From positions 1,302,001 through 1,366,000 of the forward strand of contig NZ_JAHRYQ010000001.1 in assembly GCF_020622065.1 (NCBI RefSeq): 64,000 nucleotides of DNA, read 5' to 3'. Positions 1,536-52,398 of the stretch are shown here, in pieces. Both the position numbers and the translations under genes were made by a program. How positions within the stretch are numbered: the stretch's first letter is position 1; the number at the start of each line of letters is the position of its first letter. Below the pieces are notes generated by a model, which did no database searches, was not told the origin of the DNA, and saw only the letters and a program-made list of their open reading frames with translations. The DNA comes from Geothrix sp. (GTDB lineage Bacteria > Acidobacteriota > Holophagae > Holophagales > Holophagaceae).

Positions 1536-3896
1536 CTAGCCGCAAGACAAGGTGAAACGGAGGGCATTGCCCGCCGCGTTGAACCCCAGGTCCCGGGAAA
1601 GGGCGCGAAGGGTGAGAAGACCCCGGCCGGCCATCGGAGGCTCGGCCTGGCCAGCCTGTTCCTGCCAGGCCCGCCAATTGAATCCCGGCCCCGAATCCTC
1701 AACTTCGACGGCGATTTCGCGGATCCCGGAGTGGGAACCTGCCCGGAGGCTGATCCGGAGCGAGACCGTCCCCTCCGTCAGGGCTTCCAGACCGGCGTGC
1801 CGGGCGGCCTCGTAGGCCTCGATCCCCCCCTCCTTCAGCCGGGGATCCAGGCGAAGCAGGCCGTGATCCACCGCATTGGCGAGGGCCTCGGTCAGGGCCA
1901 GGGCCAGACGCTGGGAGGGCCCGGATGGAAGGCCCTGATTGCCGAGGAGGCGGAGGCAGTCGGGCAGGAACTCGCGGATCGTCTGCTCCCGGGGATTCAG
2001 GATGAAGTCCAGGGCGAAGATCGTGCGGAGGGGTTCAGCGGAATCTCCGGCGGGACGGGCGGCATTCGAGAGGCGGGCAGATGCCGGGGCGGGCACCTCC
2101 CAGAGCGCCCAGCTGGCGTCGTCCTGCTGCTCGCGATCCAGGCCATCCGCCGCGAGCGCCTCTTGGATCGCCTTCTGGCAGGCGGGGAAGGGCAGCTTCC
2201 CGGAGGGAGCGAGGATGGACTGGAGGCGCTCGCCGAGCATGTCCTGGAGGCCGTCGGTGAAGGCGAACAGGCGGTCGCCCTCCGATACGGCGATCTGCTC
2301 CACGACAGGGGCATCCAGCCGGTCCACCACCCCGGCGGGCAGGTTGTGCGAGGCGATCCGCCGCGGCGGGCCGTGACGGGGCAACAAGAGGGCATCCGGC
2401 AGGCCCGCGTTCAGAATCGAGAGGGTGCCCTTGTGGACATCCAGCCGCATCAGCATCAGGCAGACGAACCGGCCCGAGGGCAGCATCTCGCGCAGCCGGG
2501 CATTGATCTGGCGGTAGGCCGTGTCCAGCGGGATGTTCCGGTTCGCCATGCTGAGGAAGGCCTGGACCGCCGGGAGGGTGGATACGCCCGCTGCCAGGCC
2601 GTGGCCGGTCGCGTCGCAGAGGAACCCGAAGTGGACCCCGGGCAGGCCTTGGCGGTAGGTGCAGGCATCGCCGTTGATGCGCCGGGTCTGGAGCGTCTCC
2701 ATGTGGAATCCGGGCGGCAGGGCCCGCAGACCCGGCTCGACCAGGCGCCGAAGCAGGTGCTTGGTAATGGCGAGCTCTTCGTCGGTTTCGGCCCTGGCCC
2801 GGGTCAGTGAACGCTCCTTGGCCTCCAGGCGTCCGATCATCGCGTTGAAGGACTCGGCGAGGACGCTCACCTCGTCGTTCCCCCGGATCCGGATGATCCG
2901 GTTCCCCGCCGGAAGGTCCCCCAGGGCCCGCACCTGGTGGGTGATGTCCTCGAGGTTGTCGGCCAGGCGGTGGGAGATCAACCAGGTGAGGAACAGGCTC
3001 ATGGCGACGACCAGTGCCACGGCAAGCTTGAGGTAGGACCGGAGCCGCTCGACCGGGCGAAGGGCCTCGGCGACCGGAAGGCTGGCCACGAGGATCCCAT
3101 CCATGGCTTGGAGCCGCTTGAGCGAGGAGATGGTCGGCACGCCCGCGGCGTTGACCCTCTCACCGCTGCCTTCAAACCCTTGGAGCGCCCGGTCGAAGAG
3201 CTCGGAAGGCTCCGGTGGGTCGAAGGATTTCATGAGCCGGGCCGGATCCGGATGGATCAGCACCCGGCGCTTGGAGTCGAACAGCTGGAGGTAACCGGAG
3301 TCCGGCAGCTGTTTGCGGGCGATCTCCCCGAGAAAATCATCGTGGAGAAGGTCGATGCCCCCCGCGAGGACGGCCAGGACCTGCCCATCTTTCCCCCACA
3401 GGGGAACTGCCATCAGGACGGCAGGTCGCCCGGCTGACGCCACATCATAGGGAGGGGATACCCCAGCCTGACGATTCGCCATTACCGCGTCGAGGAAGGG
3501 CCGAAGGGGAGCAGGCGCCAGGGCATCCTGGGGGGCGTCGGCCGCCTCGGTCAGGAGCCGGCCATCGGGCCCGACCAGGAACACCCCGTTCGGGAAGGTG
3601 GTGCGAAGGCTCGTGCGCGCCTGGAGCCAGCGCGCCGCTGATCGGTGGTCGAGTAGGGTGCTGGGTGGGATCTCCCGGGCGGCTCCTTCCAGGCACTGCT
3701 GATAGAAGGCGATGGTCTCGTCCATGGCCCGCGCCAGCAAGGTCACTTCATTGAGCTGGTGCTGCTCGATCCGGGCCCGGGATACGGAGGTGAAGTAGCG
3801 GGCGACGGCCCAGCCTCCACCCGCCACGACCATCGAGAAGAACAGGCCGAAGGCCATGAAGATCTTGCGCTGAATGCCGAAGTGGCGGGAACTCAC
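1536..3896 (-). CDS. Sensor-HAMP-SpoIIE phosphatase fused to an anti-sigma HATPase domain
   Basis: The 786-residue protein has a membrane helix at about 11-33, a periplasmic Cache-like sensor region to about 285, a second helix at about 290-310, a HAMP linker, a SpoIIE/PP2C phosphatase domain (about 395-600) and a C-terminal RsbW-like HATPase (about 650-786). The phosphatase acidic residues are visible in RINGDA, FLCDATGHG, FAFTDGL and QQDDASW. The kinase N box reads EALANAVDHG, followed by DSGPGF and GRGL. Family knowledge says such proteins dephosphorylate a STAS antagonist and may also phosphorylate it or bind a sigma factor. The STAS gene lies immediately upstream. The start is a GTG at 3894-3896, overlapped by the TGA of a 27-codon leader frame. 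Confidence 0.87.
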   Translation of the reverse strand: MSSRHFGIQRKIFMAFGLFFSMVVAGGGWAVARYFTSVSRARIEQHQLNEVTLLARAMDETIAFYQQCLEGAAREIPPSTLLDHRSAARWLQARTSLRTTFPNGVFLVGPDGRLLTEAADAPQDALAPAPLRPFLDAVMANRQAGVSPPYDVASAGRPAVLMAVPLWGKDGQVLAVLAGGIDLLHDDFLGEIARKQLPDSGYLQLFDSKRRVLIHPDPARLMKSFDPPEPSELFDRALQGFEGSGERVNAAGVPTISSLKRLQAMDGILVASLPVAEALRPVERLRSYLKLAVALVVAMSLFLTWLISHRLADNLEDITHQVRALGDLPAGNRIIRIRGNDEVSVLAESFNAMIGRLEAKERSLTRARAETDEELAITKHLLRRLVEPGLRALPPGFHMETLQTRRINGDACTYRQGLPGVHFGFLCDATGHGLAAGVSTLPAVQAFLSMANRNIPLDTAYRQINARLREMLPSGRFVCLMLMRLDVHKGTLSILNAGLPDALLLPRHGPPRRIASHNLPAGVVDRLDAPVVEQIAVSEGDRLFAFTDGLQDMLGERLQSILAPSGKLPFPACQKAIQEALAADGLDREQQDDASWALWEVPAPASARLSNAARPAGDSAEPLRTIFALDFILNPREQTIREFLPDCLRLLGNQGLPSGPSQRLALALTEALANAVDHGLLRLDPRLKEGGIEAYEAARHAGLEALTEGTVSLRISLRAGSHSGIREIAVEVEDSGPGFNWRAWQEQAGQAEPPMAGRGLLTLRALSRDLGFNAAGNALRFTLSCG

Positions 3897-3976: not shown

Positions 3977-4284
3977 CCTTCCTGGATCTCGAAGAGCTTC
4001 CCGAACTGCACGATCTTGAGGATCTCCATCACCGCCGGGGAGGGTTTCCCCAGGACCACCCGGAGGCCCTTGCTGTCGGCCTTCTCGCGCAGCAGCAGCA
4101 GCATGCCCAGGGCGGAGGAATCCAGGTAGCTGAGGCCGGAGAGATCCAGGGTGATGGGCCCGGTCGCGGTCGCATCCAGCACCTCCTGGGTGGCGCTGCG
4201 GAACTGGGTGTGGGCTTCAAAGGTGAATTGGCCCTCGAGCCTCAACCGGGAAGCCTGGAGATCCTGGTGCAGCGTGAGACTCAT
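3973..4284 (-). CDS. STAS-domain anti-sigma-factor antagonist
   Basis: The protein is 103 residues and almost entirely a STAS domain of the SpoIIAA/RsbV type. The phospho-acceptor loop is LDLSGLSYLDSSALGML, with the DSSALG motif whose serine is the expected phosphorylation site. The ATG at 4284 has an AAAGGAC ribosome site and gives a standard-length STAS protein; an upstream in-frame start at 4356 would add an unlikely 24-residue tail. It is the first gene of the unit with the SpoIIE/HATPase protein, its probable phosphatase and kinase partner. A GGGAGG-CGG-CCTCCC hairpin (4300-4314) lies in the 5' leader. Confidence 0.88.
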   Translation of the reverse strand: MSLTLHQDLQASRLRLEGQFTFEAHTQFRSATQEVLDATATGPITLDLSGLSYLDSSALGMLLLLREKADSKGLRVVLGKPSPAVMEILKIVQFGKLFEIQEG

Positions 4285-43137: not shown

Positions 43138-43160
43138 TCTGCAGTCCTGAATCTCAGTGT

Positions 43161-43182
43161 GCGGGGGCCTTCGGGCCCCCGC
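43161..43182 (+). terminator. Stem-loop after maeB
   Basis: GCGGGGGCC-TTCG-GGCCCCCGC forms a perfect 9-bp stem with a UUCG tetraloop, 23 bp after the maeB stop. No T run follows, so termination may be partial. The next gene starts soon after. Confidence 0.55.
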
Positions 43183-43219
43183 TGCTATGCTGGGAGGAAT
43201 TCACGGCTCGGGAGCGGCG

Positions 43220-43654
43220 TTGGCGGATGTGCTGTGTGCCTGGTGCGGGGCCCTGGTCGGACAGAGCGCGGCCGAGCATTCCCACGGCATCTGCCAGCCC
43301 TGCTATCAGCGGCTCCGGGGCCTTCCCGACCTCACCGAGGAGGAGCTCGACGAGCTGCCCTTCGGCGTCATCGTGCTTTCCCGGGATGGCATCATCCGCT
43401 CGTACAACCGGGCCGAGGGCGAACTTGCCGGGCGGGCACCCCGCAGCGTCCTCGGCCGGAACTTCTTCACGGAAGTGGCCCCGTGCACCTCCGTCCAAGC
43501 GTTTGAAGGCTCTTTCCGTGCGTTCTGCGAGGGGGATGAAGTCTCTCGGACTTTCCAGTTCACCTTCCGGTTTCTGGCGGGCCCGGTCCGGGTACAGATC
43601 GTCTTCCTCCACAAACAACCGGATGTGGCTGTGGCGATCCGGAAGCTGCCCTAG
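43220..43654 (+). CDS. Photoactive-yellow-protein-like PAS protein with N-terminal four-Cys motif
   Basis: From the TTG at 43220 the protein has 144 residues. An N-terminal zinc-ribbon-like piece (CAWC and SHGICQPC; Cys 6, 9, 25, 28) is followed by a PAS domain from about residue 44. That domain closely follows photoactive yellow protein: LPFGVIVL, YNRAEGELAGR, LGRNFFTEVAPCT. The chromophore Cys (89) and the hydrogen-bonding Tyr (62) and Glu (66) are kept, as is Arg (72); the PYP Thr50 and Met100 positions are Ala. Starts at 43187 (ATG) or 43229 (GTG) are also possible, but 43187 lies inside a TATGCT -10-like box. Whether it binds p-coumarate is unknown; no chromophore-synthesis genes are nearby. 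Confidence 0.72.
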   Translation: MADVLCAWCGALVGQSAAEHSHGICQPCYQRLRGLPDLTEEELDELPFGVIVLSRDGIIRSYNRAEGELAGRAPRSVLGRNFFTEVAPCTSVQAFEGSFRAFCEGDEVSRTFQFTFRFLAGPVRVQIVFLHKQPDVAVAIRKLP

Positions 43655-43673: not shown

Positions 43674-44465
43674 TCAACGCTCCAACTGCCGCATCCACGC
43701 CTGGATCTCGGGGTCGGGATCGGGGCTGAGGTGCAGGGCCATGCGCAGGTCGATGAGGGCCTGCCCGGGCTCGTCGCGCTGCAGGTGGATGAAGGCGCGC
43801 TCTTTGTGGGCCCTTGGATTGCTGGGCTCGAGGAGGATGAGGTGGGTGCCGGTCCAGAGGGCCTCCTCCCAGTCCTCCGCATGCATAAATCGCAGGTGCA
43901 GGTTCCGCACGAGGCGGACGAGGATCTGCCGGTCGGGCGCGGGGCTGAGCATGTCCCGGTGGAAGGCCACGCGGCCGGCGGTGGCGGACTTCACCAGCTC
44001 GGCTCCGCCCTCCTCGCCCACGGGGCGGCCCTGGTGGAAGGGGTCGAAGCAGAGCAGGCCGAAGTCCGTGCGCAAGGCGGCGATGAAGTGGCCCGGGAGC
44101 CTCACGCCCACGGCGTCGAACCCCATGCGCCGGGCCAGATCGATCCAGAGGATGGACAGCGAGATGGGCAGGCCCTTCCGCCGTGCGATCACGGCCGGGA
44201 GCAGCGCATTCAGTGGATCGTCGTAGGTCTCGCGGTCGCCGGTGAAGCCGAGTTCCGCAAAGAGCAGGTGGTTGAGCGCGTCCAGGGCCTTGTGGGTGTT
44301 CCAGGGCAGGGGCATGCGGCCCGCGAGGGTGAAGGCCCACTCATTGAGCTGCAGGGCGACATGGTCGGGATCGGGATCGTCCAGGGCCGGCGCCACGGCA
44401 TGCACGGCGCCCTCAGCCAGATTTCGGCACTCGGGATCCTCGCGCAGGTACTCGAGCAGGGACAT
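43674..44465 (-). CDS. SirB1-type transglutaminase-like protein with TPR tail
   Basis: The 263-residue protein has the SirB1/transglutaminase-like core: YDDPLNALLPAVIARRKGLPISLS, GVRLPGHFIAAL and CFDPFHQGR. A short TPR-like segment follows (NPRAHKERAFIHLQRDEPGQAL). Its role is not established; relatives are often near protein-release-factor methylation genes, which are absent here. Its ATG overlaps the upstream stop by one base (TGATG). Confidence 0.83.
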   Translation of the reverse strand: MSLLEYLREDPECRNLAEGAVHAVAPALDDPDPDHVALQLNEWAFTLAGRMPLPWNTHKALDALNHLLFAELGFTGDRETYDDPLNALLPAVIARRKGLPISLSILWIDLARRMGFDAVGVRLPGHFIAALRTDFGLLCFDPFHQGRPVGEEGGAELVKSATAGRVAFHRDMLSPAPDRQILVRLVRNLHLRFMHAEDWEEALWTGTHLILLEPSNPRAHKERAFIHLQRDEPGQALIDLRMALHLSPDPDPEIQAWMRQLER

Positions 44466-44959
44466 CAGCCGCGCCGTTGGATGACCGCGCGGGCCACCAG
44501 CGCCAGTGCCAGGAGCGCCAGGGCGCCATAGACCCAGCGCTGCCAGGCAGTGGTGGCCGCCTGCACCTTCTTGCCTTCTTCGGCCTTGCGGGCGTTCTCT
44601 TCCAGCGAGAGCTTGGACTGCGCCTCCCGGGCATCCTTCACGGCCTTCTGGGCGGATTCCCGCGAGGCCTGCAGGTCCTTGGAGGCCGCTTCCTGCTCTT
44701 CCTGCACGCCCAGGACCGCGGCGCTCTTCCGCGGCGGAGCCTGCTTGGGCAGGAAGGAGGCGGGCACGGCGGCGCCATCGTCTTCGTAGGAGGCAGGTGC
44801 CTGGCTGTTCTCGATGGATTCCGTCAGGAGCTGGATGTCCTCCCGCAGCGCCTGCAGCACCTGGCCCTGGCGGTGGAGCTGAGCGCCCTGGATCCAGAGC
44901 ATCACCAGCTGGAGCGCCAGCAGGGCGGGGATGGTCCATCGGAGGGTGGGGCGGCTCAT
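44465..44959 (-). CDS. Membrane-anchored coiled-coil protein (164 aa)
   Basis: The protein has a membrane helix near the N terminus (about 9-25), a central coiled coil rich in Lys, Glu and Gln (QEEQEAASKDLQASRESAQK and following), and a second helix at the C terminus (WVYGALALLALALVARAVI). No family was recognised. It sits between the SpoIIE-type phosphatase (ATGA overlap) and the SirB1-like gene, so it may be an accessory of that signalling unit. Confidence 0.65.
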   Translation of the reverse strand: MSRPTLRWTIPALLALQLVMLWIQGAQLHRQGQVLQALREDIQLLTESIENSQAPASYEDDGAAVPASFLPKQAPPRKSAAVLGVQEEQEAASKDLQASRESAQKAVKDAREAQSKLSLEENARKAEEGKKVQAATTAWQRWVYGALALLALALVARAVIQRRG

Positions 44960-47511
44960 GCGTGCTCCCTTCCCAGGATAAACAGAGTCCGGTCGTCGCG
45001 GTTCTGGGTATCGAAGGCGGCCACATCCTGGAAGACCGCTTCGCAGGCGGCCCGGGGGCTGCCGGTACCCCAGAGGCGGCGCAGCTGGTTGCCCAGGCGG
45101 CCCACACCGTAGAGTTCGCCGTCCCGGTTCATGGCCTCGGACAGGCCGTCGCTGTAGAGCACCATCCAGCCCTTGGGAGGCAGCACCCCTTCGATGACTT
45201 CCCAGTCACCGGGGCCCGCCGGGCGGAGGCCAAGGCCCCGGCCGTGGGGCGTCATTTCAGTGGAACAGTCTTCCGACAGGCCATGGAGCAGCAGCGCGCC
45301 GGGGTGCCCGGCTCGCGCCAGCCGGTAGTTGCCGGCCTCGTCCCACTCCAGCAGAACCAGGGTGAGGAAGCCCCGCTGACCCAGCAGCTGGCGCAGGGTG
45401 TGGTCCAGCGAGCAGAGGATCTCCTCCAGGCGCTGGTCCTCCCGCTGGGCGGCCTGCTCCAGAAGGGCCGTGGCCTGGGCCATGTAGAGCGCGGCAGCGA
45501 GGCCTTTGCCGCAGATGTCGCCCACGGCGGCCAGCCAGTTGCCACTGGGGCGCCGCTTGACGAAGAGCAGGTCGCCGCCGGTTTCCAGGGCGGGTTCGAG
45601 CCGCAGGGCGACCTGGAAGCCCGGGATGGGCGGCAGATGGGAGGTGATCAGGCCCTCCTGGATGCGGCGGGCCGTTTCCAGTTCCTGGCTGAGCCGCTCC
45701 TGGGCCACGAGGCGCTGGTGCATCACGGCGGTCTCCAGCACCTGGCCGGCGGCCAGGGCCACCTCGCGCAGCAGCTCGCGGTCCTCCCGGCCGTAGTTCA
45801 ACTCGGCGTATTTGCCGCCCAGCAGGACAGCGCTGTGGGGCTGGTCCCCGGCGACGATGAGCAGGAGCAGCTGGGCCTCCAGGGCGTCCACATGGGCCCG
45901 CACGCCTTCGCCCTGCTCGCGGATCCAGTCAGCCTCCTCGCTGCCCAGGCCCAGCACCAGCTCGCGGTTCTCGCGGGCGAGGCGGAGCAGGCCCGGTGGG
46001 AGCCTCAGGGGCTGGGGCGGAAAGTGCAGGCGCCGGTCATCCCGGTCCACGGCCTCGGCGGCGGGCAGGAGGATCTGCCGCTCCTCGATGGGCAGCACCT
46101 CCAGGAACTGCGGCTGGAAGGCCTCGCCCAGGGCGCGGCGCAGGGATTTGATCAGGGCCTCTTCGCTGAAGCGCTTGCGGGGCTCCCGCACGGCGCTGAG
46201 GGCGATCTCGCGGGTGCTGGAGAAGTCCCGGCGGAATCGCCGCCGGATGCCGCGGAGCAGGCGCCGCAGGGCCCACCCCAGAGGGAGCGCCAACAGGCCG
46301 ATGAGGGCTCCGGCCCAGCCGGACGGGATCGAGGAGAGGTGGGAGAAGGCCCAGGCCAGGCCGCCCAGGTAGGCCACGATCGTGATGCCGAGGATGGCCA
46401 TGTAGCTCACCCACCGCAGCAGCACCTTGCGCACATCGAAGAGGCCGTGGCGGAAGATGGCAAAGGCGAAGCTCAGGGGCAGCAGGGGGGCCGGCAGCAT
46501 GAAGATGAAGATCTGGCGGCGGAAGAGCAGGCTCTTCCCGTATTTCGCGTCGAGCAGGGTCCAGGCCACCAGGTCGAGGCAGAGCACCGCCGCCACGATG
46601 AGCGAAGGCAGCAGGGCCCGGCGCAACCGCTCGTGGGTCCGGAAAGTGCCCGCCAGGAAGAAGCCCAGGCCCGTGAGGGCGGCCACGACATAGAGCGGGA
46701 TGGGCAGGCCGAAGGCGCCCAGGGCGGCCTTGAGCATGCCCACGGGAGCCAGGCCCGCGGGTGTGCGGAGGGCGCCGTCGGTGAAGATGCCCCACAGACG
46801 GACGAAGAGGAGCCACAGGGAGAGCACCGCGAAGGTTCCGTACACGGCCTGGAGGAAGCGCCGGTTCTTGCGGAGCGCGAAGGCATGCGGGAATCGGAGG
46901 AAGAAGTGGATCCACAGCGGTGGCAGCAAGGCGATGGCGACGGCGGTCATCAGGGCGATGGCGATCCGCATGGGGATCGGCGCGTTGCCTGAGAGCGTGG
47001 CCCCCGACATCAGCAGGGCGGTGGCCGCCAGGTAGAAGAAATGGCGGGAGGTCTTGCGCTCCGGGGCCGACAGCACCACCAGCAGGCTGATGGCCCAGGC
47101 GAGGATGCCGTTCAGCAGCAGGGCCAGCTGCACCGGTTCCAGGGGCTTCACCAGGCGCAGGGGCAGCAGGATCTGGCGGCCCTGGCGCTTCACTGTGTAG
47201 ATCAGGATGGCGCCCTGGGGCTTGGAGTTGATGAAGCGCTGGGCTTTGAGCGTGCCTTCCTCAGTGGGTTCGAAGGCACGGCCCTGGATCTTCACCAGCT
47301 CATCGCCCTCGAGAAGCCCCGCCTCCTCGGCCACGCCCTCGGGCAGGATCTCGCGGATGACGACCTTCCCGTTTTCCACGACCCAGGAGCACTGGTCGTC
47401 CGAGGCGGCGTAGACCCACTGGTTGAGCGCGAAGGATCCCAGCGCCAGCGTCAGGCAGGCAAAGCTGATCCACAGCAGGCGCCAACGGATGCGTTTGAGG
47501 TAGGGATTCAT
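44956..47511 (-). CDS. PDZ-multispan membrane-SpoIIE phosphatase
   Basis: The 851-residue protein has an N-terminal helix, a periplasmic PDZ domain (about 45-120; GVAEEAGLLEGDELVKIQGR), seven or more membrane helices (about 125-430), a GAF-like linker (about 440-590) and a SpoIIE/PP2C phosphatase domain (about 610-851). Phosphatase motifs are ETGGDLLFV, VGDICGKGLAAAL, MVLYSDGLSEAM and NRDDRTLFIL. It should dephosphorylate an anti-sigma antagonist in response to an envelope or membrane cue. No STAS gene is adjacent. It leads an operon with the coiled-coil and SirB1-like genes. Confidence 0.87.
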   Translation of the reverse strand: MNPYLKRIRWRLLWISFACLTLALGSFALNQWVYAASDDQCSWVVENGKVVIREILPEGVAEEAGLLEGDELVKIQGRAFEPTEEGTLKAQRFINSKPQGAILIYTVKRQGRQILLPLRLVKPLEPVQLALLLNGILAWAISLLVVLSAPERKTSRHFFYLAATALLMSGATLSGNAPIPMRIAIALMTAVAIALLPPLWIHFFLRFPHAFALRKNRRFLQAVYGTFAVLSLWLLFVRLWGIFTDGALRTPAGLAPVGMLKAALGAFGLPIPLYVVAALTGLGFFLAGTFRTHERLRRALLPSLIVAAVLCLDLVAWTLLDAKYGKSLLFRRQIFIFMLPAPLLPLSFAFAIFRHGLFDVRKVLLRWVSYMAILGITIVAYLGGLAWAFSHLSSIPSGWAGALIGLLALPLGWALRRLLRGIRRRFRRDFSSTREIALSAVREPRKRFSEEALIKSLRRALGEAFQPQFLEVLPIEERQILLPAAEAVDRDDRRLHFPPQPLRLPPGLLRLARENRELVLGLGSEEADWIREQGEGVRAHVDALEAQLLLLIVAGDQPHSAVLLGGKYAELNYGREDRELLREVALAAGQVLETAVMHQRLVAQERLSQELETARRIQEGLITSHLPPIPGFQVALRLEPALETGGDLLFVKRRPSGNWLAAVGDICGKGLAAALYMAQATALLEQAAQREDQRLEEILCSLDHTLRQLLGQRGFLTLVLLEWDEAGNYRLARAGHPGALLLHGLSEDCSTEMTPHGRGLGLRPAGPGDWEVIEGVLPPKGWMVLYSDGLSEAMNRDGELYGVGRLGNQLRRLWGTGSPRAACEAVFQDVAAFDTQNRDDRTLFILGREHA

Positions 47512-47536: not shown

Positions 47537-48271
47537 ATGGAGCGGATCTCGCGGAATGATCGGGCCTGCTGGGTGCTGGTGGGCGGAAGGCGGCGGCTGG
47601 GTCGGGCCCTGGCGGAGGATCTGGCCCGGGACCACGACCTGGTGCTGACCAGCTCTGAGCCCTGGGACGGGGAAACCTGGGTGGATGACTTGTCGGAGAC
47701 GGCGCGGATCCGGACGCTTCAGTGGGATGCCGAGAACCCGGAACTGGTGTCCCGCATGATGGCAGATCTGGACAGGTTGGCGTCAGATGGATGGGTGATT
47801 TCCGGCGCCGTGATCCTGGCCGGGACCTTCCCGAAAAGCCCCCTCGGCACCTGGACGCCGGATCTCCTCGAGACGACCTGGCGCATGAACCTGAGCTTCC
47901 CGTTCCTATGCGCCCAGGCCCTGGGGCCACGGCTCGTCGCTGGCGCCTGCCTCCAGCTCCTGTTGGACACCTCCATCCACCACCCCTGGCTCGAGCGCTT
48001 GCCCTACAGCGCCGCCAAGGCCGGCCTGGCCGCCCTCGTGCCGGGGCTCGCGCAGTTGCTGGCGCCGAAGGTGCGGGTGGTGGGCCATGCCCTGGGGGCG
48101 GTGCTGCCGGCGGAAGGGAGCGATGCCGGCTTCCTGGCCCAGCGCACCCTGCTCAAGCGCCTCGGAGATCCCGCCGATCTCTGCCGCGCGGTGCGCTTCG
48201 CCGCCGACAGTCCCTTCCTCACGGGCGACATCCTGACCCAGGATGGCGGGCGGCGTTGGGTGGACCGATGA
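47537..48271 (+). CDS. Short-chain dehydrogenase/reductase, pteridine-reductase-like
   Basis: The protein is about 244 residues. The nucleotide loop is VLVGGRRRLGRALAEDLA, whose RRRLG form resembles FolM/PTR1 pteridine reductases rather than typical TGxxxGIG enzymes. YSAAKAGLAAL holds the catalytic Tyr and Lys. FLTGDILTQDGGRRW is the usual SDR ending. It overlaps queE (ATGA). A role in pterin or deazaguanine chemistry is suggested by that neighbour but not shown. A start at 47510 is also open. Confidence 0.82.
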   Translation: MERISRNDRACWVLVGGRRRLGRALAEDLARDHDLVLTSSEPWDGETWVDDLSETARIRTLQWDAENPELVSRMMADLDRLASDGWVISGAVILAGTFPKSPLGTWTPDLLETTWRMNLSFPFLCAQALGPRLVAGACLQLLLDTSIHHPWLERLPYSAAKAGLAALVPGLAQLLAPKVRVVGHALGAVLPAEGSDAGFLAQRTLLKRLGDPADLCRAVRFAADSPFLTGDILTQDGGRRWVDR

Positions 48272-50435: not shown

Positions 50436-52361
50436 TCAGCGCGGTTCTTCGGCGAGGGGCTGGGCCTTGGTGGGGGCTTTCGGCGGCGCACCCAGGAAAC
50501 GACCTGGATGGCGATTGAAGGCTTTGAGGATGCCGATCCCCAGGCGGCGCCCTGCGCGTCCGCTCAGGTCGCGGGCGCGCAGGGCGGTCCAGAGGGCGAG
50601 GGCGAAGGAGAAGGCGAAGTTCATGACCCCGATGAGGGCGATGCCCAGCAGGCCCCAGAGCACCTCGCGCCAGGCCAAGGTGCCCTCCAGCCAGAGGCTG
50701 GCTGAAGCCAGGGCCAGGGAGGCCGCCTGGAGGGTGACATGGCGGACCTCCAGGTGGATGCCTGCGAAGGCGAAGGCCATGGGCACGAAGACCAGCAGGA
50801 TGCCGAGGGCCGAATAGCCGGCGAAGCCCGCCAGATGCCGATGGATGAACCGGCCCAGGGCGGCGGCGCCCGCCTGCCCGAGCCAGCCCTGGAGGCGGTG
50901 GTTCTGGGCCAGGGCCTCGGGCAGGCAGCGATAGGCGCTCCAGTTGGCGGTCCAACCTGCGGCCAGGCTGGAGAGCCAGAGCAGCACGCCGGTCATGGCC
51001 GCGTAGACCAGGGTCCAGCCGTGGAAGGGGTGCGTGCCATGCAAGCCGTGCAGGGCGGATTCGGTTCCCAGGGGGCCATGGCCCGTGGCCCAGGCCCAGA
51101 GGGCGACGATGCCCAGGGCCGCGGGGATCGTCGCCAGCACATTGCCCAGGGTGGCGATGACCTGGGTGCGCGTGATGGCCGCCACGAGTTCGATCTCGCG
51201 GGCCTGGTCGTCCCCTTCTTCCAGCGCCCGGGCCAGGGCGGCGGCGGTCATGGCGGGCTGCTTGGAGGCCAGGCTGAAGCCCATCAGCTGCATGGTACAG
51301 AAGCTGATGGCGTAATTGGCGGAGAGGGCGAGGCCCGTGAGCAGGGGCGCCAAAGGCAGGGCGGTGAAGGCCGCCTTGAGCAGGGCCGTGACCGAGGTGA
51401 GCAGGCCGCCCCCGGCGGCGGAACGGCCCATGGCCCACCACTCTGCCCGGTCCCGGGCGATGTAGTGCTCACCGGTCTCGCCGGTGTGCTCCACGACCTT
51501 GCGGGCCAGGCGCTTGACCACCGTGCGCAGCAGGAACCGCAGGCCGTGCTGGGAGGCGCTCCCCCGCACCAGCTCGGCGGCGAGGGCGGTGCCGTCCCCC
51601 CGGGCCCCGGCGAAGTCGAGCAGCTGGCCGATGCGCGCCAGCTGAGCCTCCAGCAGCTCGAGCCGGAACACCAGGTCCGTGGAGACGCCCCGGGCTTCGA
51701 GACTCGCATGGGCCCGGGCCAGGGTGGCCACGCAGGCCGCGCGGCAAGCCTCCCAGGCCGCGTGGGCCGAGGCGTCCACGGGATGGTCCGCAGCTTCCTG
51801 GACGGCCCGGGTGAGGTGGAAGAAGGGTGAATCCGCGTCGCTGCCCTCGGGGCTCAGCGCCAGCAGATCGCGCGACAGGCCCACGGCGGCGGCCCGGTGG
51901 GACAGCAGGCAGGCGGCGTGGACCCAGGTCTCCTGCGGCGGAGCCAGGATGTCGCCCCAAGCGGCCCGGAGATCTCCAGGCAGGGCCTCGATCCAGGCGG
52001 CGTCGGCCTCCTTCAGGTTCAGCCGGTCCAGCAGGGCGTAGAGATCCCCTTCGGGATCCAGACGGGGGATGAGATGGTCCGCCAGCCGCAGGAAGCCTTC
52101 GCCCATCAGGGTCGTGCGGTCCGGCAGGCCCGTCTCGGCCAGCAGGCGGATGGCCGAGGCATGATTCCAGGCCTCGGCCAGGGGACCCGTGAGCCCGCGT
52201 TCGGCCAGGGCGCCGAGAAGGTACCGCAGCTGGGCAGTGCGGTGGGGTTCGCCTCCTGCAGGGGCCTCCGGTGAGGCCGCCAGCAGCCAACGGAGCAGAG
52301 GTTCCGGCCTCGGCGAGCCACCGAGCAGCACATCATCCAGCCTGAGGTCGGGCAGGGGCAT
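50436..52361 (-). CDS. Gcr/COG4389 family multispan protein (annotated as site-specific recombinase)
   Basis: The protein is about 641 residues. The first half is helical and soluble. The second half holds several membrane helices (for example AITRTQVIATLGNVLATIPA, GWTLVYAAMTGVLLWLSSLA and ALGILLVFVPMAFAFAG). It matches the family named after Neisseria Gcr, said to affect pilin gene conversion. The many membrane helices make a direct recombinase role doubtful. The ATG at 52361 with an AGGA site is used; a GTG at 52394 is also open. Confidence 0.8.
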   Translation of the reverse strand: MPLPDLRLDDVLLGGSPRPEPLLRWLLAASPEAPAGGEPHRTAQLRYLLGALAERGLTGPLAEAWNHASAIRLLAETGLPDRTTLMGEGFLRLADHLIPRLDPEGDLYALLDRLNLKEADAAWIEALPGDLRAAWGDILAPPQETWVHAACLLSHRAAAVGLSRDLLALSPEGSDADSPFFHLTRAVQEAADHPVDASAHAAWEACRAACVATLARAHASLEARGVSTDLVFRLELLEAQLARIGQLLDFAGARGDGTALAAELVRGSASQHGLRFLLRTVVKRLARKVVEHTGETGEHYIARDRAEWWAMGRSAAGGGLLTSVTALLKAAFTALPLAPLLTGLALSANYAISFCTMQLMGFSLASKQPAMTAAALARALEEGDDQAREIELVAAITRTQVIATLGNVLATIPAALGIVALWAWATGHGPLGTESALHGLHGTHPFHGWTLVYAAMTGVLLWLSSLAAGWTANWSAYRCLPEALAQNHRLQGWLGQAGAAALGRFIHRHLAGFAGYSALGILLVFVPMAFAFAGIHLEVRHVTLQAASLALASASLWLEGTLAWREVLWGLLGIALIGVMNFAFSFALALWTALRARDLSGRAGRRLGIGILKAFNRHPGRFLGAPPKAPTKAQPLAEEPR

Positions 52362-52398
52362 CGGCAATCCTGGTGGCGTTCCCCAGAGTGCCACAAGC

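Follow-up and report, generated by a model that had tools for sequence, protein, structure and literature searches.

A receptor with a comparable input has been described in Bacillus. ComP carries a PDZ domain in its first extracytoplasmic loop, between transmembrane helices 1 and 2 (TM1 and TM2), followed by a bundle (ten spans in BaComP), and the binding of ComX by this PDZ domain is a proposal of the same paper (PMC9620489). RsbU is reported to be activated by the ordering of a coiled-coil linker, which dimerises the phosphatases, and such linkers are proposed to make sensors interchangeable among PPM phosphatases, kinases and cyclases (PMC12143880). SpoIIE is switched by a shift of the first two helices of its PP2C domain (PMC5468089). 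Here we describe a locus of Geothrix sp. in which an input of the ComP type appears to be joined to a phosphatase of the SpoIIE type. The locus lies in a stretch of 64,000 nucleotides, called the window below (assembly GCF_020622065.1, contig NZ_JAHRYQ010000001.1, forward-strand positions 1,302,001 to 1,366,000), of a 3.35 Mb genome that has Geothrix and further Holophagaceae (Acidobacteriota) as its named relatives. Genes A (44956-47511; 851 amino acids), B and C were confirmed as overlapping open reading frames (ORFs) on the minus strand, as a preliminary description made from the bare sequence had reported; A and B overlap by 4 base pairs (bp) and B and C by 1 bp. We consider it probable, at roughly 0.6, that A couples a membrane receptor of the ComP type to a SpoIIE phosphatase of partner switching instead of a histidine kinase, with B and C as its partners. 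In the open-licence literature no description was found of a PDZ-SpoIIE protein or of this operon (the PDZ co-mentions checked concern other uses), and no paper was found that joins Geothrix with partner switching.

Architecture of gene A

The anatomy of A was derived from hydropathy, Pfam and an AlphaFold2 model (45 sequences; mean predicted local distance difference test score, pLDDT, 82.1; predicted template modelling score, pTM, 0.48). TM1 corresponds to model helix 3-33 and is followed by a predicted PDZ domain at residues 38-122 (47146-47400, minus strand like all parts of A), which was recognised from a sub-threshold Pfam match, the model, a PDB profile search and invariant columns. Residues 41-119 were modelled in a PDZ-like order of strands (41-46, 49-55, 71-75, 102-109 and 112-119) and helices (60-64 and 84-95) with a block pLDDT of 84-92. 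A profile of the N-terminal half of the family matches 185 distinct PDB sequences (E<=1), and its best PDZ chain reaches E 1.6e-5. The best 60 of these 185 matches all align inside profile positions 43-133 with an InaD-like protein in first place, and MamP, a zinc-metalloprotease PDZ, DegP, DegS and CtpB are among the matches listed. In addition, three relatives of the same layout (L219, L221 and L233; our own numbers for loci, genomes and genera begin with L, G and g) pass a Pfam PDZ cut-off. The PDZ fold suggested in the preliminary description is supported, as a prediction, by the model, the PDB profile and these relatives. Basic residues mark the cytoplasmic side of a membrane protein (the positive-inside rule), and because such residues occur at the N-terminus of A the PDZ domain is placed in the periplasm.

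The multispan region extends over residues 126-426 (46234-47136) and was defined by hydropathy, the model, conservation and kinase relatives, with an HFFLRFP motif at 202-208. Eight or nine spans follow the PDZ domain up to residue 426, and for the last two the confidence of the model is low (pLDDT 51-69). A GAF-like domain comes next, at residues 430-600 (45712-46224). The GAF assignment made in the preliminary description stands on an alpha/beta domain in the model (about 446-600) and on relatives, since L221 passes the GAF_3 and GAF cut-offs and L219, L233 and L238 match GAF_3 below cut-off, but A itself has no Pfam GAF match at E<=1 and its PDB sequence profile gave one chance-level match only. 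A long modelled helix at residues 575-621 (45649-45789) joins this domain to the phosphatase and is a candidate dimer linker, comparable with the crossing linkers of RsbU and RssB (PMC12143880).

The SpoIIE/PP2C domain occupies residues 627-849 (44965-45633) and was identified by Pfam, conservation and fold search. Its PF07228 score of 115.4 bits against a cut-off of 25 bears out the phosphatase identity given earlier. Residues D647, D665, D788, D839 and D840 are invariant in the 45 A sequences and include putative metal-binding positions. In SpoIIE, D628 is among the metal-binding acidic residues (PMC5468089). The best VIA-align rows are the RsbU domain of Rv1364c (Z 26.6, 2.3 Å, 217 residues) and SiaA (Z 26.0, 2.7 Å, 238 residues), which tie because rows less than 1 Z apart were counted as ties, and the top Foldseek match is RssB. 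By its domain score, acidic residues and fold, A is assigned to the SpoIIE/RsbU-type PP2C class and is predicted to dephosphorylate a STAS protein. In nine comparisons per gene, the ratio of nonsynonymous to synonymous substitution rates was 0.13-0.19 (A) and 0.17-0.42 (B), which together with the spread of A through the family speaks against chance ORFs.

A thus carries a receptor, a GAF-like domain, a linker helix and a phosphatase, which are the parts needed for a linker-switch mechanism. We infer that the periplasmic PDZ domain and the span bundle would read a ligand or a membrane state. The change would travel through the GAF-like domain and helix 575-621, probably in a dimer, and would reposition the switch helices of the PP2C domain. 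The active phosphatase would take the phosphate off a STAS anti-anti-sigma protein encoded elsewhere, and the dephosphorylated STAS protein would allow a target to be released from an RsbW-type kinase. B may be a family-specific membrane partner, with its hairpin in the periplasm beside the PDZ domain, which probably tunes A, and C may act as a cytoplasmic scaffold-type partner.

The putative receptor module in Acidobacteriota and the proposed partner genes

A profile of the module (A residues 1-430) was searched in 396 Acidobacteriota genomes at E<=1e-6 and matched 127 of them, 35 from Holophagaceae and 92 from elsewhere. Among the 92, G192 (L236) was placed in another family and shows a Holophagaceae-type contig, which is probable contamination; L215 is a Holophagaceae-type contig in a record titled Bacillota, probably through contamination or mislabelling. 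Sixty loci were fetched, 59 from the 92 outside genomes and one that is an additional site in G072, a Geothrix genome, and 57 of them gave an ORF with the module (E<=1e-3). Behind the module stands a histidine kinase in 41 of these ORFs, SpoIIE in nine and neither in seven (L236 and L286, the G072 site, included), labels that are not independent since the kinase and SpoIIE output profiles were built partly from the same proteins (nine kinases; L219, L233 and L238). No module ORF was obtained from L233, L261 and L283; of these, L233 counts among the SpoIIE proteins by its Pfam match and forms a tenth SpoIIE case beside L219, L238, L258, L266, L269, L270, L271, L276 and L279. The kinase relative L221 combines PDZ, GAF, PAS, HisKA and HATPase_c. 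The preliminary description had considered the PDZ input unusual; it is unusual for a phosphatase but, as the 41 kinase ORFs indicate, common on histidine kinases in the phylum, and it is known from ComP.

In a tree of 66 modules, made by a quick method with long branches and without L233 and module matches shorter than 250 residues, 14 Holophagaceae proteins form one clade and six other SpoIIE versions a separate one (Shimodaira-Hasegawa-like approximate likelihood ratio test, SH-aLRT, 100 for each). This is compatible with one or several fusions giving the SpoIIE versions. A receptor part that is usual on signalling kinases and is joined here to a phosphatase switch would illustrate how a sensor can be rewired in bacteria from one signalling system to another. 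With the whole membrane receptor module on both outputs within one phylum, the idea of sensor exchange becomes testable by an output swap, and Geothrix gains a defined receptor with two little-understood partner genes.

Gene B (44465-44959, minus strand; 164 amino acids) encodes a TM helix, a helical hairpin with a disordered loop that is predicted to be periplasmic, a second TM helix and an Arg-rich C-terminus. Its model consists of two long helices, each with one membrane span, and the disordered loop (mean pLDDT 70, pTM 0.29). Because basic residues occur at both ends, both termini are tentatively placed in the cytoplasm and the hairpin in the periplasm, and by the positive-inside rule the C-terminus is probably cytoplasmic. 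B was matched in 36 of the 396 phylum genomes, with one match each and none outside Holophagaceae. No Pfam family above cut-off was found in B or in gene D, a membrane protein of 189 amino acids that comes after C or replaces C outside Geothrix. D is well conserved across several genera (L244:1639-2205, L073:4671-5237, L082:8473-9039) and was found in 26 of the 101 loci searched, none of them Geothrix, where some genomes are counted twice under different locus numbers.

Gene C (43674-44465, minus strand; 263 amino acids) contains Transglut_core2 (131.7 bits, cut-off 23.5) and TPR. The earlier label of SirB1-like corresponds to a weak match, 45 bits to SirB1 (PRK10941) against an NCBIfam cut-off of 391, so that C falls outside SirB1 by this measure; the accompanying remark that such a gene has no known link to SpoIIE systems agrees with the open-licence literature, in which no paper containing both SirB1 and SpoIIE was found. 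C is probably cytoplasmic because no signal or TM segment was seen. Papain and transglutaminase enzymes use a Cys-His-Asp triad. Among 29 C sequences H126 and D141 are invariant, the sole invariant cysteine (C13) lies far ahead of the core, and no conserved cysteine occurs inside it. The search for PDB relatives of C gave none at E<=0.01, and the function of PF13369 (Transglut_core2) is stated as unknown in a 2023 paper on the papain-like fold (PMC10318531). The PDZ-SpoIIE loci outside the family gave no match to C. A TPR gene adjoins L238, L266 and L269 (L269:352-4253, with a 4-bp overlap). Since these PDZ-SpoIIE genes all belong to other families, TPR proteins may be recurrent partners of such genes.

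Linkage, alternatives and the phosphatase target

Several observations weigh against A as a receptor-phosphatase with B and C as partners. The PDZ domain lies below the Pfam cut-offs (PDZ_6 19.6 bits vs 27), and the PDB fold search was filled by phosphatase matches and covers the phosphatase part only. The other points concern the gene trio, the carboxylate loop of the PDZ domain and the surroundings of A, and are given below with the alternatives.

A was found in 72 of 77 family genomes, some as fragments (G035, G067, G083 and G085, plus a second piece in G013), with full-length A at 48-99% identity, and C in 64 of 77. Both occur in 63 genomes; in 61 of these they share a strand and are separated by 463-621 bp, which is the space of B, and in G034 and G078 they are split between contigs, A being close to a contig end (an 8047 bp contig in G034; A starting at base 60 in G078). 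Among 34 loci that were read (the window and 33 others), 27 have a B-type ORF whose start overlaps the end of A by 1 or 4 bp, B starts 34-69 bp after A in L086 and L087, and B is not intact in the five loci of genus g25. The four genomes of g25, whose isolate codes presumably indicate termite guts, retain A in all five loci, and no C was found in them; B is a shortened ORF in L088 and an N-terminal remnant in L091 and was not seen in L089, L090 and L092, while D is present in four of the five, L088 ending too soon. One g25 assembly, G096, holds two full-length A genes (L088 and L089) with different downstream sequence. C was also not found in three of the four genomes of genus g21 (G083-G085). 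In G073, B, C and D are kept with B starting beside the gene for an SDR oxidoreductase, and A is missing from the locus and was not found in two genome-wide searches of this assembly (94% complete, 220 contigs). The apparent loss of the operon in G028 was not counted, since the SDR gene and the MaeB orthologue are also missing and an assembly gap is likely. Because G073 and g25 break the trio, an obligate trio is rejected, and A, B and C are not strictly interdependent.

These exceptions favour a possible, though rather unlikely, explanation in which A, B and C are neighbours merely by inherited order and joint translation, without any action of B or C on A; the wider synteny of SDR, QueE and MaeB, which is also conserved in many loci, is in line with it. 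However, the A-C spacing is kept even where identity has fallen to about 52% (A) and 54% (C), the overlaps of A and B recur as counted above, and B turned up solely next to A or C among the phylum genomes. The preliminary description had suggested a look for the trio in other genomes and had named unlinked genes together with an unsupported PDZ fold as grounds for giving it up; the broken trios count in part towards these grounds, but the linkage holds within the family and the PDZ fold is supported.

The canonical PDZ carboxylate loop is of the glycine type. Where DegS-type PDZ domains carry their carboxylate loop, A reads D38-D39-Q40-C41-S42-W43 and differs from the glycine type; the position is unusual, with an invariant D39-x-C41-x-W43. 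A doubtful alternative is that the PDZ region is a structural or redox element in which the invariant periplasmic C41 would set the dimer state or sense redox, with the spans acting as the sensor. D39, C41 and W43 are invariant in the 45 A sequences, as this would predict, and the cysteine looks specific to the family of A because the kinase relatives L221, L222, L223, L224, L234 and L237 carry D-G-x-x-W there without Cys. Other PDZ features are conserved as well, however, including the invariant D70 and, in the second helix, I94 and N95, and PDZ domains of the HtrA type bind peptides, although ComX binding by the PDZ domain of ComP is a proposal only.

The genome contains five SpoIIE matches, six STAS matches (one in a protein of 620 amino acids resembling a SulP transporter) and 24 HATPase_c_2 matches, with two single-domain RsbW-type proteins among those read. 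The five stand-alone STAS proteins are encoded at C2:478993, C1:707273, C2:287923, C1:1305982 and C1:965014. Three of the SpoIIE genes have a STAS gene next to them, unlike A and another SpoIIE gene, which has a part that looks zinc-finger-like by eye. The window holds a second SpoIIE protein, a sensor-SpoIIE-HATPase fusion at 1536-3896 (minus strand), with a STAS gene (about 3982-4248) just upstream of it. No STAS or RsbW gene was found beside A at the compared loci, so that a STAS protein is a putative substrate of A; the matching STAS protein for which the preliminary description had suggested a search is absent from the locus, but unlinked candidates exist in the genome. The best of these is the STAS gene C2:478993, which is followed after 4 bp by an Omp85/POTRA gene and lies divergently to flgB (L122:1903-5314), an order kept in all 10 further genomes of the family that were examined. 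An orphan RsbW gene, C1:1843162, has no neighbour common to more than two of ten genomes. The orphan STAS was found in 67 of 77 family genomes, a count that includes some paralogues, and the orphan RsbW in 71 of 77. Co-occurrence of A with these two was set aside as uninformative, since nearly all genomes have all three.

STAS proteins that control a cyclase or transport are known from SiaA and stressosome variants. We regard it as unlikely that A targets such a STAS protein, or another phosphoprotein, rather than a sigma-factor partner switch. The fold comparison puts the phosphatase equally near to SiaA and to the RsbU domain, and no sigma gene was seen beside the orphan STAS between Omp85 and flgB; on the other side, RsbW-type ATPases exist in the genome, one of them an orphan. 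It is a good deal less probable that a ComP-type peptide-receptor input moved from kinase to phosphatase and that A, the family-wide Omp85-linked STAS and the orphan RsbW make up a circuit of unlinked genes by which an envelope or cell-to-cell signal is coupled to outer-membrane assembly or motility, with B as periplasmic co-receptor. B as a PDZ ligand through its C-terminus was rejected, because B probably ends in the cytoplasm with its Arg-rich tail and would offer no periplasmic C-terminus. Sensing of exposed protein C-termini as in DegS, put forward in the preliminary description, is a possible function that found no support, with no protease domain found in A and an atypical carboxylate loop.

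Neighbouring genes and comparison with known systems

No neighbour of A is more constant than the divergent SDR gene (47537-48271, plus strand), whose ORF is open from 47510 and whose chosen start lies 25 bp from A. It was matched in all compared loci but one, L189, whose contig stops 17 bp short of A. On the other side, a gene for a photoactive-yellow-protein-like PAS protein (43157-43654, plus strand) converges on C and was found in some Geothrix-type loci but not all. This protein scores 101.6 bits with TIGR02373 against a cut-off of 143, retains the APCT cysteine and has an N-terminal CxxC...CxxC that looks zinc-finger-like by eye. A large membrane protein at 50436-52394 (minus strand) matches PF10136, named Site-specific recombinase, with 501.5 bits and recurs near A in a number of loci.

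Compared with DegS and RseP, the PDZ domain of A shows weak similarity (TIGR02038 17.5 bits, TIGR00054 13 bits), but no protease domain was found in A with Pfam and NCBIfam-type profiles. RsbU, RssB, SiaA and Rv1364c share with A the phosphatase fold and the preceding helix and differ in their sensors, and neither a STAS gene nor a kinase gene adjoins A. The PDZ-multispan-SpoIIE proteins outside the family have the same order of module and SpoIIE, with the GAF_3 matches given above, but do not fall in the Holophagaceae clade of the module tree (L233 is not in the tree). By profile, the PDZ-multispan histidine kinases of Acidobacteriota share a homologous module with A; they differ in the kinase output, which by eye is mostly followed by a response-regulator-like gene among the loci listed. 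ComP shares the TM1-PDZ-multispan layout of the input, as judged by its published layout and not by sequence, whereas its output is a histidine kinase and its ligand the ComX pheromone. A therefore has a ComP-type input, yet with SpoIIE as its output it is not a ComP kinase.

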